DNA of 64,000 bases, taken from positions 248,001-312,000 of the forward strand of contig NZ_JAMQVC010000001.1 of assembly GCF_023721415.1 (NCBI RefSeq), read 5' to 3'. Positions within the stretch are counted from its first letter, which is position 1; each line of letters opens with the position of its first letter. Below are positions 564 to 3,247 of the stretch, one piece after another. The translations under genes and the position numbers were made by a program. The notes beneath the pieces are model-generated. The model ran no database searches. It had not been told where the DNA came from and worked only from the letters and a program-made list of their open reading frames with translations. This stretch comes from Galbibacter mesophilus. GTDB lineage: Bacteria; Bacteroidota; Bacteroidia; Flavobacteriales; Flavobacteriaceae.

Positions 564-823
564 CGAAAGAAGCCGCATTTTAGGGAAAAATGCGGCTTCT
601 TTAAACTAACCAACTTAAAAAATAATCAAACAAGTTTTTATATAGTGATACTGAAGGAATATCTCTTCAGCACTAATTTTCAATTTTCAAACTTTTTGAA
701 TAGTAGAGCCGTACAATTTAAGGGGCTAACTATGAAAAATGTACGACTCTGCTAAATAATCAAATCAAAAAAAACATCTATTATGAAAAAATATTTTAAA
801 GAACTTTTCTCTTTCTTTATTAC
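564..823 (-). ncRNA. Candidate structured small RNA, copy A
   Basis: Inferred minus-strand RNA of about 260 nt. A -7 element TACCTTTG lies at 835-828; its -33 box is weak. Next come a leader shared with copy B (AAAGTTCTT, then TAAAATATTTTT and CATA), a 10-bp hairpin (749-706) whose loop contains CCCCTTAAA, an extra small hairpin (670-651), a conserved single-stranded stretch ending AAGTTGGTTAGTTT (~632-603), and a terminator hairpin (599-569) followed by TTT. Compared with copy B, the hairpin pairs change by compensatory or wobble substitutions. No convincing open reading frame runs along it. The terminator may also end the upstream AraC gene on the + strand. Confidence 0.6.
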
Positions 824-827
824 ATTA

Positions 828-835
828 CAAAGGTA
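828..835 (-). promoter_or_regulatory. Promoter -7 element of small RNA copy A
   Basis: TACCTTTG on the minus strand matches the Bacteroidota -7 consensus TAnnTTTG. The -33 position 17 bases upstream reads TTCT instead of TTTG, so this is a weaker promoter than that of copy B. It stands at the same place relative to the conserved leader as in copy B. Confidence 0.55.
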
Positions 836-995
836 CATCGGCCAGCCACTTTAGAACTTGTAAAAAACAAGCAAAAAATTTCCATCTTTAAAAAAGACAA
901 ACCTTCAATTTTCATCATAATGTATTGTGATTTTTAGTTAAAGAAACAAAAACGGTAATACGGACAATACGTTTAGAGTTTGAGACTTTTAAAAC

Positions 996-1028
996 AAAAA
1001 AAAAGCTGTATTTTAGGGAAAATACAGC
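996..1028 (-). terminator. Intrinsic terminator of small RNA copy B
   Basis: Minus-strand hairpin with a 10-bp stem GCTGTATTTT / AAAATACAGC and loop CCCT, followed by nine T residues. The orientation is clear because the T tract exists only on the minus-strand 3' side. Confidence 0.75.
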
Positions 1029-1228
1029 TTTTTCAAACTAACCAACTTAAAAAATAATCAAACAACCCCTATCCATCATCCTAAAATAAAGAGCCGTACA
1101 GGTTTAGGGGATAGAGGATTGGGGGGATTTGTACGGCCCTTAACTAACCAACCAAAAAAATTAAAAAGGTGATAAAAACACCACTATGAAAAATATTTTA
1201 TAAGAACTTTTGTATTCCTTTGAATTAC
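996..1228 (-). ncRNA. Candidate structured small RNA, copy B
   Basis: Inferred minus-strand RNA of about 230 nt between a consensus promoter and a strong intrinsic terminator. Parts in order: leader shared with copy A, a small GGTG/CACC hairpin, a GTTGGTTAGTT single-stranded stretch, a 10-bp hairpin (1139-1091) with loop motif CCCCTAAA, a linker, a second AAGTTGGTTAGTTT stretch (~1046-1033), and a terminator hairpin (1028-1005) followed by nine U. The loop of the large hairpin (1121-1109) is complementary to linker bases 1074-1063 over 12 pairs with one bulge, which would make a pseudoknot. Stem differences from copy A are G-U or full compensatory changes on this strand only. It could be a member of a known Rfam family; this cannot be checked here. 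Confidence 0.68.
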
Positions 1229-1232
1229 AGTA

Positions 1233-1261
1233 CAAAGATACGCCGCTGATAAAGGTGCAAA
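1233..1261 (-). promoter_or_regulatory. Consensus promoter of small RNA copy B
   Basis: On the minus strand TTTG (1261-1258), a 17-base spacer and TATCTTTG (1240-1233) match the Bacteroidota -33/-7 consensus exactly. Initiation is expected near 1228. The promoter sits about 100 bp upstream of, and divergent from, the AraC-type gene starting at 1357. Confidence 0.72.
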
Positions 1262-1356
1262 CTTGTAAAAACTGCTTAAAAATTTTCTATTTTTGATTTA
1301 ATTAACTCATTCCATGAGCTTTAACCAATTTTAACATTAAACACCAAAAGTAAATT

Positions 1357-2217
1357 GTGAATACTGATATATTTCATGAAGGCTTTATGCTTACGGAAGG
1401 AAAGACCGACCGAAAAATGACTTTGGACCGTAAACACAATTTCTTTCAAATTTTGTACATCAAAGAAGGATTGGGAAAAATGATTATCAATAAAATTGAT
1501 GTGCATTACCTTGCCAACAGTATTTTTCTCATGGCGCCCGAAGACATGTACGCTATTGATCCTTCAGAAGAAACAACTTACACCTCTATTAAATTCACAG
1601 AAATATTGTTTTCCAATAAATCTAGTCTTCCAGATAGAAAGTATTGGTTGCAACAAATTGAACACATTTTACATCACCCCAACATAATGCCAGGCGATTG
1701 CATTTCTAATGAAGAAGATCGAGAAAGATTATGGCGAATACACGACTTTATAGTAGAAGAATACAAAACTAAAAATGAATTCTATTGGAGTATCATAACC
1801 AACGGGTTGACCACTAGCTTAAGTATAATTGCTAGAAACATCATAAAAAAATATACGCCAAACAAAGAAATAGACCCTTCCATTAATTTAAAACGTACTG
1901 ACCAAATTCTAGCGTATATACGAAGTAATGTGTATGATGAAGAATTAATGAAGATTGAAAATCTGGCCGCGCAATTTAATATGTCTCAAGCCAATATTGT
2001 AAACCTATTTAAAAAGGAAACAGGGGAAAGCATCCGTCAATATATTATTAACTACAAATTGATGCTTGTAAAGTACCGACTTAGAAACACCAATTATACC
2101 ATTTCTGAAATTGGCTACGAACTAGGCTTTACGGATGAAAGTCATTTAACGAAATCTTTTAAGAAGCATTTCGGGAAAACCCCTAAGCAATACCGCTTGG
2201 AGTATCAAAAACATTAG
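1357..2217 (+). CDS. AraC family transcriptional regulator
   Basis: 286 residues with the usual AraC layout: an N-terminal sensor-like domain (about 1-160, beta-rich, cupin-like by position) and a C-terminal DNA-binding domain (about 185-283) with two helix-turn-helix units, MKIENLAAQFNMSQANIVNL and YTISEIGYELGFTDESHL, then GKTPKQYR. The start is GTG at 1357 because an in-frame stop (TAA at 1351) lies just upstream; ATG at 1387 is the alternative. Its upstream region contains the divergent promoter of small RNA copy B, so it may regulate that RNA; this is inference from position only. Its 3' end overlaps the convergent nuclease gene by four bases. The ligand is unknown. Confidence 0.88.
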   Translation: MNTDIFHEGFMLTEGKTDRKMTLDRKHNFFQILYIKEGLGKMIINKIDVHYLANSIFLMAPEDMYAIDPSEETTYTSIKFTEILFSNKSSLPDRKYWLQQIEHILHHPNIMPGDCISNEEDRERLWRIHDFIVEEYKTKNEFYWSIITNGLTTSLSIIARNIIKKYTPNKEIDPSINLKRTDQILAYIRSNVYDEELMKIENLAAQFNMSQANIVNLFKKETGESIRQYIINYKLMLVKYRLRNTNYTISEIGYELGFTDESHLTKSFKKHFGKTPKQYRLEYQKH

Positions 2218-2984: not shown

Positions 2985-3247
2985 AATGATGATTTTAATT
3001 CAAAAATACTATACTTAACTATTCGCCTTTGTTAAGTTTACGTTCTCTTTTTAGACAGGTTACGCAACATAAACGATAACGGGTAAGTAAACTCCTTAAA
3101 AATACGGATTTTCGCAAAGAATTAAAGCGTAAAGACCTCTTTAAAATTCCCGTTACTTTCTTACCTTTACAAACCAATTACCTCAACGCTAGAAAACTAT
3201 AAACCCTAACAAACACCTATTTATTATGTTGTATTTTAAATTGACAA

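Follow-up and report, generated by a model that had tools for sequence, protein, structure and literature searches.

The window, as the whole stretch of 64,000 nucleotides of Galbibacter mesophilus DNA analysed here is called, carries at 564-1262 of its minus strand two diverged, terminator-ended units arranged head to tail and flanked by two AraC-type genes. AraC1, whose start lies before the window (L065), is represented by its 3' part at 1-481 of the plus strand and is convergent with unit A, while AraC2 occupies 1357-2217 of the plus strand and is divergent from unit B. Both were recognised as AraC-family regulators by Pfam, AraC2 through its HTH_18, HTH_AraC and AraC_binding domains. The -7 promoter boxes, the predicted starts near 1228 and 823, and the terminators that a sequence-only reading of this DNA had proposed for the two units were all found in place.

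Every part of the units lies on the minus strand. Unit B (winB) is preceded by an upstream activator-like site (UAS; 1261-1287), an exact match to the pattern GAAAnTTTn9TTnTACAAGT, with the -7 box TATCTTTG (1233-1240) following after 20 nt and a predicted RNA of ~233 nt (996-1228) starting near 1228. Its leader contains an imperfect boxA-like sequence, GTTCTTATAAAA (1196-1207), and a short hairpin, GGTG...CACC (1168-1182), that varies between units. Downstream are found the first TTGGTTGGTTAGTT box (1142-1155), an internal hairpin (1089-1141) whose C-rich loop has CCCCUAAACC as its end, and a linker (1064-1088) in which 9 nt are able to pair with that loop, a pseudoknot candidate also present in the orthologue of genome G005. 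The 3' end is formed by an invariant 3' box, TTTGATTATTTTTTAAGTTGGTTAGTT (1036-1062), and an intrinsic terminator with the loop CCCU (999-1034). In unit A (winA), the UAS, again an exact match, is located at 856-882, the -7 box TACCTTTG at 828-835, and the predicted RNA of ~260 nt at 564-823, with its start near 823. Its leader bears the boxA sequence GTTCTTTAAAA (794-804), followed by an internal hairpin with GCCCCUUAAA within the loop (706-749), the invariant 3' box (604-630), and a terminator to which the hairpin script assigns the loop UCCCU (566-602). This terminator is nearly symmetrical, so that it could terminate AraC1 transcripts too.

The two units are alike in blocks rather than overall, sharing repeat pairs of 94, 48, 35 and 24 nt at 73-83% identity. 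Three copies of GTTGGTTAGTT are present in the window, where 0.04 would be expected; of the one or two such stretches per unit described earlier, copy A keeps one intact and is degenerate at the second place. No ATG frame of at least 15 codons is common to the 11 units considered below on either strand. At the gathering score, Rfam identified three tRNAs in the whole window and nothing else, and a permissive search of 480-1360 returned 37 matches, all below their cut-offs, the best reaching 24.9 bits against 50. The comparison with known families proposed in the sequence-only reading thus points to no family, with neither Flavo-1 nor 6S RNA among the matches. A match to LhrC was rejected as chance, being on the plus strand and scoring 21.5 bits against a cut-off of 110.

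When the whole stretch was searched against 60 related genomes, long or multiple strong matches appeared in the same genus alone (G003, G004, G005 and G006); the congeners G001 and G002 gave no long or strong match in this search, and matches in other genera were short, with E values of 1e-5 at best. A scan of 84,980 species, one genome each, for exact copies of the 27-nt 3' box returned three records, namely Galbibacter pacificus, Joostella atrarenae and Galbibacter orientalis, and no stretch of viral contigs matched the box exactly. Plasmid occurrence was rejected, since the single 25-nt match was judged to be chance. Homologous units are thus present in four of the six other congeneric genomes, amounting to 11 units in five of the seven genomes of the genus: two in the window, four in G003, one in G004, and two each in G005 and G006. 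With one to four homologous, apparently stand-alone RNA genes per genome, at least two is the usual number, one genome having a single unit, and each copy appears to have its own promoter and intrinsic terminator and no ORF. In all five genomes the locus is the same: the units are enclosed by the two AraC genes, on whose far sides come a small secreted protein (next to AraC1) and an S1/P1 nuclease (next to AraC2); Pfam was applied to the proteins of the window genome alone, and neighbours in other genomes were recognised by sequence. Farther neighbours vary, a DUF885-type gene being found in four of the five stretches (not in G004) and a beta-lactamase-family gene also in four (not in G005, whose nuclease is followed by another ORF). 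The two units of G005 are separated by several direct repeats of ~115 nt (CCCGACC..GTCGGGAT), REP-like in character, at about 4080-4560 of L062.

From 5' to 3', the order of parts is the UAS, a spacer, TAnnTTTG, the leader, an optional small hairpin, and a U-run bearing GGTTGGTTAGTT or a degenerate form of it; the 3' half consists of the internal hairpin GAGTCGTAC...GTACGGCTC, a free linker, the invariant 3' box and the terminator. The spacing from UAS to promoter is 20 nt in ten units and 19 nt in P_1, with an unconserved spacer sequence, and the 27-nt 3' box is identical in 11/11 units. J_1, one of the four J. atrarenae units, is degenerate and lacks both the internal hairpin and boxA. Linkers differ between copies and are not conserved between species, while the conserved parts (UAS, leader, C-rich loops and 3' box) are common to the copies; the earlier suggestion that differing linkers reflect different targets therefore gains no support from this comparison.

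The UAS pattern matches exactly ten times in the seven genomes of the genus, every time at a unit, J_1 having one mismatch. As the pattern was derived from the units, the finding lies in the absence of other exact matches. At two mismatches the matches in the seven genomes do not exceed the control background, so that a wider AraC2 regulon is not visible. AraC2 is found in all five genus genomes with units and is missing at E 1e-30 from both genomes without them (G001 and G002), in which AraC1 directly adjoins the nuclease gene. AraC1 is present in all seven and hence shows no presence/absence link to the units. The tree of AraC1 and the nuclease fits one change (support 78/96), two changes being also compatible, and the co-occurrence in five genomes versus two would also be explicable as a single cassette lost in one block. 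Considering (i) that the UAS is at sequence level unique to the units and linked to the presence of AraC2, and (ii) the position of AraC2 beside them, AraC2 is proposed as their dedicated activator, a role in which it would bind the UAS. Similar RNAs beside distant AraC2 homologues (at most 38% identity) were rejected, none being found in the first 900 divergent bases of ten loci; one such locus, L076, has one GGTTGGTT beyond those bases.

Sequences resembling GTTCTTTAAAA lie 23-27 nt after the -7 box in ten units. Six of the 11 leaders carry this sequence exactly, and eight match GTTCWTTAAAA, so that a boxA-like element appears early in the putatively untranslated leader of eight units; it is missing in J_1 and imperfect in winB and O_2. 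The 11-mer GTTCTTTAAAA is identical to a natural boxA that PMC7862264 reports upstream of a CRISPR array, and the organism's own 16S-23S spacer carries the similar GTTCATTAAAA and GTTCATTGACA. A single chance match of the pattern in 64 kb was obtained in 16 of 100 shuffles; since this is not rare, the argument for boxA rests on fixed position and conservation. Being missing or imperfect in some units, and not recognisable by eye in g242, the second genus discussed below, the boxA-like leader is at best a feature of the genus.

Regarding RNA structure, the pair changes noticed earlier between copies A and B, in the terminator stem and in the internal hairpin, are present, and they exceed chance in view of the units in four of six congeners, the covariation of the terminator and the G-U bias on the minus strand. 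In the terminator (10 distinct sequences), 98% of cells are paired and 5 of 10 pairs change on both sides, which is matched by 3 of 500 shuffles, and none of 500 reaches the covariation score; further pair types do not rise above the shuffles (396/500). In the internal hairpin, 93% of cells are paired (reached by 10/500 shuffles) and the covariation score is reached by 6/500, these statistics covering nine of ten sequences because the upper stem of P_1 differs and was misaligned. A single pair shows a double change there, as in shuffling (439/500). For the internal hairpin the case is thus weaker than originally worded. Most of the covariation is that of the intrinsic terminator. Since such a terminator would covary whatever the transcript, the covariation supports transcription of the minus strand more than a special RNA fold. 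On the minus strand, both hairpins of the homologues together contain 15 G-U cells against 4 A-C cells (8 versus 0 in the core of the internal hairpin), indicating that pairing is kept on this strand, in agreement with the earlier assignment of the RNA strand. Tested as whole units, copy A folds significantly (z -4.47) and copy B does not (z -1.54). Taken as a whole, the comparative evidence agrees well with the earlier notion of sibling RNAs that are structured, stand-alone and transcribed from this strand. A possible pseudoknot of 9 to 12 pairs between loop and linker was seen in winB (1066-1117) and in its G005 orthologue (L062 3935-3993), with shuffle fractions of 0.025 and 0, respectively, and 0.049 in J_2; as a general feature it was rejected, the fraction being at least 0.31 in seven of ten units.

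The loops themselves are rich in C, which accounts for 128 of 316 loop bases (41%) in the 11 units against 149 of 2262 (7%) outside the scripted hairpins, the latter group including the bases of the O_1 terminator, which the script missed. CCC is present in 19 of 21 loops, mostly as CCCTA, CCCTAA, CCCATAA, CCCCTAAA or CCCCAAAC, the exceptions being the G5_2 and O_2 terminator loops; C-richness is kept while the precise sequence of the loops varies. Loops of this kind are seen in the terminators of further flavobacterial RNAs as well, and so do not have to be target seeds.

The 3' end of the units proved to be far from exclusive to them. Together with its terminator, GTTGGTTAGTT, previously listed among the parts of the units, belongs to a common 3'-end module of Flavobacteriaceae, and as a hallmark of these RNAs it was rejected on account of its family-wide occurrence before terminators. 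A covariance model of box plus terminator matches 161 of 397 family genomes at E 0.01 (the window genome, G001 and G005 included), scoring 87-98 bits on the units of the window genome and G005 and below 50 in all other matches listed; 28 loci matching it indicate a general 3'-end module, shared by mRNA 3'UTRs and further small RNAs. Likewise, TTGGTTGGTTAGTT occurs 239 times in 149 genomes of the family against 20 for the reversed pattern. It runs straight into a strict terminator in 19 of 29 loci (30 were returned, and one that the script did not locate was left out) versus 7 of 511 places chosen at random from these loci, window unit B being among the ten that fail this strict test. Examples of TTGGTTGGTTAGTT directly before intrinsic terminators in these 149 genomes are provided by L165-L193. 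Across the family, this module may serve as a general signal for termination or for RNA docking.

Other small RNA families came to light in the same comparison. A tandem family with a GTGGTTAC box and the same 3' module has three copies in L160 (G309) and two in L163 (G119), and related short RNAs occur in L168, L172, L174, L178 and L180; Rfam gave no match in six of the seven loci, L178 being left out. Two of the three L160 copies and both L163 copies are preceded by TTGGCAC-N5-TTG, which we take to be sigma54-like. In L161 (G304), four tandem short units lie downstream of a gene that by eye resembles one for phosphoglucosamine mutase, each unit ending with ATATTGGTTAGTT and a terminator with a TCCCCAA loop, and a similar unit is found in L101. 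L162 (G166) contains, between genes, two near-identical tandem copies ~220 nt apart that start with GCACGCAACC and end in a terminator. In L094, an Rfam match to DUF805b RNA (1378-1412, minus strand; 44.8 bits against a cut-off of 35.6) lies beside a short GGTTAGTT-terminated unit.

Relatives of AraC2 at E 1e-60 are found in 13 of 397 family genomes. Outside the genus, a pattern search detected UAS plus promoter close upstream of AraC2 in six of the 11 genomes, in each case among the first 330 divergent bases, against a background of 56 in 2232 windows of 320 nt and 14 in 236 windows of 1450 nt, drawn from loci that include some unit-bearing ones. By eye, G246 and G234 also have site and promoter; three of the 11 (G205, G172 and G356) have no such site. 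A sequence model of site, promoter and leader matches 12 of 397 family genomes at E 0.001, the window genome and G005 included; the best matches outside the genus, at most 31.5 bits, are G251 and G407, both of genus g242, the other eight of the ten outside genomes scoring 20-22 bits. In several genera a palindrome, CTATGCATGCATAG or variants of it, is located between the AraC2-type site and the start region (L205, L215, L216, L217 and L218), which suggests a second regulator; it was not seen in the 11 Galbibacter unit promoters.

In G407 the gene order is nuclease, AraC2 (53% identity), a 133-aa protein with a site-bearing promoter, tandem units, an alkB-like gene and AraC1, and in G251 a DoxX-like gene and units are divergent from its AraC2. 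The place of the units in G407 is marked by three further TAnnTTTG starts, at 3009, 3394 and 3922 of L206, the latter two followed by the 3' box. The 133-aa protein is weakly MauE-like, below cut-off; the small protein beside AraC2 is weakly DoxX- or MauE-like in two more genomes and above the DoxX cut-off in G378, and that of G251 has no clear DoxX or MauE match. The DoxX/MauE-like 3'UTR of G407 displays a 9-bp hairpin with the loop AGCCCUAAAC, then TTTGATTTTTTAAGTTGTTAGT, then a terminator, which is the layout of a Galbibacter unit. Units of G251 on another contig carry CGTGCCC[AAGCCCTAC]GGGCACG and TAACATGCCT[AAGCCCTAC]AGGCATGTTG. Some loops of other genera again have CCCUAA-like cores, and a scan of these genera for CCC-loop hairpins was uneven and suggestive, with none in the G378 3'UTR, G246, G172 or G356. 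Layout and synteny in this second genus suggest that the units and the DoxX/MauE-like 3'UTR beside AraC2 are related or of common ancestry, with 3'UTR to sRNA as the presumed direction.

The cassette is conserved in sequence, its site-promoter geometry fixed and one strand favoured, with no conserved frame, C-rich loops and a common 3' box. On this basis we consider it rather probable that the units constitute a new family of sibling small RNAs, activated by AraC2 and acting through CCCUAA-type loops, with a probable relationship to an mRNA 3'UTR. The two units of the window would then be stand-alone non-coding sRNA genes forming one cassette with the divergent AraC2. AraC2 would sense a signal, bind the site upstream of each promoter and turn on all copies together, TTTTTACAAGT being the sequence through which unit transcription would depend on it. 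RNA polymerase would start at TAnnTTTG, and the boxA-like leader of most copies would probably recruit NusB-S10 and carry the untranslated transcript past the internal hairpin, until transcription stops at the final terminator, after the flavobacterial UUGGUUAGUU module, whose sequence is present and whose role in stopping is presumed. The resulting RNA is predicted to display C-rich CCCUAA-type loops on two hairpins; their partners would be G-rich segments of target mRNAs, or else a protein, and the invariant 3' box would be a likely docking site for a chaperone.

Binding of a protein by the loops might by itself be the function, the RNAs being sponges that titrate an RNA-binding protein instead of pairing with mRNAs, much as CsrB-type RNAs titrate a protein by their GGA loops. 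The same type of C-rich loop on two hairpins per RNA, repeated over one to four units, and the retention of C-richness while the loop sequence varies are consistent with this idea. It is nevertheless unlikely, as each RNA offers just two sites, the CCCUAA-like cores recurring in loops of other genera also fit a base-pairing seed, and we know of no C-rich-binding protein in the flavobacterial group. The layout common to the units and the DoxX-like 3'UTR, together with a conservation that is strongest in the upstream site, the 3' box and the terminator while linkers vary freely, would also agree with transcribed relics of a lost DoxX-like gene, retained mainly as elements whose promoters titrate AraC2 and whose terminators insulate the AraC genes, no function being left to the RNA. 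The invariance of the 27-nt 3' box in 11 units, the retention of leader and loop motifs, and four copies in one species, needless for relics, make such a transcriptional buffer improbable as well.

Hardly credible, finally, is a type I toxin-antitoxin-like array, with a small hydrophobic peptide encoded on the plus strand, such as MKKYFKELFSFFITLQRYIGQPL opposite the leader of unit A. ATGAAAA starts do lie opposite most leaders, and frames of 20-27 codons exist in winA, G5_2 and two J. atrarenae units, but the frame ends after 4-12 codons in winB, G5_1, O_1 and O_2, the start is absent from P_1, J_1 and J_2, and the wobble pairs favour the minus strand. No conserved small hydrophobic ORF was found, and membership in this class, largely refuted by the frame breaks, was rejected.

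For the sibling sRNAs, a history can be put forward tentatively: the AraC regulator may have moved from control of the mRNA of a small membrane protein to an expanding tandem sRNA array derived from the 3'UTR of that mRNA, each copy retaining its activator site and terminator while a boxA antitermination leader was acquired by most, so that the known output of the Galbibacter regulator would then be purely RNA. The sequence-only reading had remarked neither on the site upstream of each promoter nor on the link to AraC2, and neither the boxA-like leader nor the resemblance to the DoxX-like 3'UTR was mentioned in it. The system is compact, comprising a single regulator, a single DNA site and one to four RNA copies, and is naturally absent from two congeners; the cassette would open sRNA action, the use of boxA outside rRNA and the passage from mRNA 3'UTR to free-standing sRNA to direct testing.

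No paper linking Galbibacter with an sRNA was found in open-licence PubMed Central. Among known systems, VqmR/VqmA and Qrr/LuxO of Vibrio also have the sRNA gene or genes adjoining the gene of a dedicated regulator, with Qrr RNAs being multicopy siblings; they differ in belonging to other regulator families and another phylum and in having no tandem units each preceded by the same upstream site. Flavobacteriaceae are called understudied in PMC9723704, few sRNAs of the family having been studied. According to the same paper, Rfp18 of Flavobacterium psychrophilum resembles the units, by description, in being a stand-alone structured flavobacterial sRNA with a predicted pairing region in a stem-loop, and differs in being conserved in the genus Flavobacterium and needed for precise protease expression. 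Another parallel is the FopS family of Bacteroides thetaiotaomicron, to which GibS belongs: as described in PMC11697453, these are Bacteroidota multicopy sRNAs with a common conserved segment and individual promoters, that of GibS having an additional motif believed to be bound by an unidentified activator, which can be likened to the UAS of the units. Unlike the 14 FopS copies, described there at multiple loci, the units are in tandem at one locus beside a candidate regulator. The LhrC family of Listeria, with which PMC13350326 deals, offers a further likeness in its multicopy homologous sRNAs with C-rich single-stranded seeds. The units would thus work as sibling sRNAs with a neighbouring regulator, representing a new family rather than a new principle.
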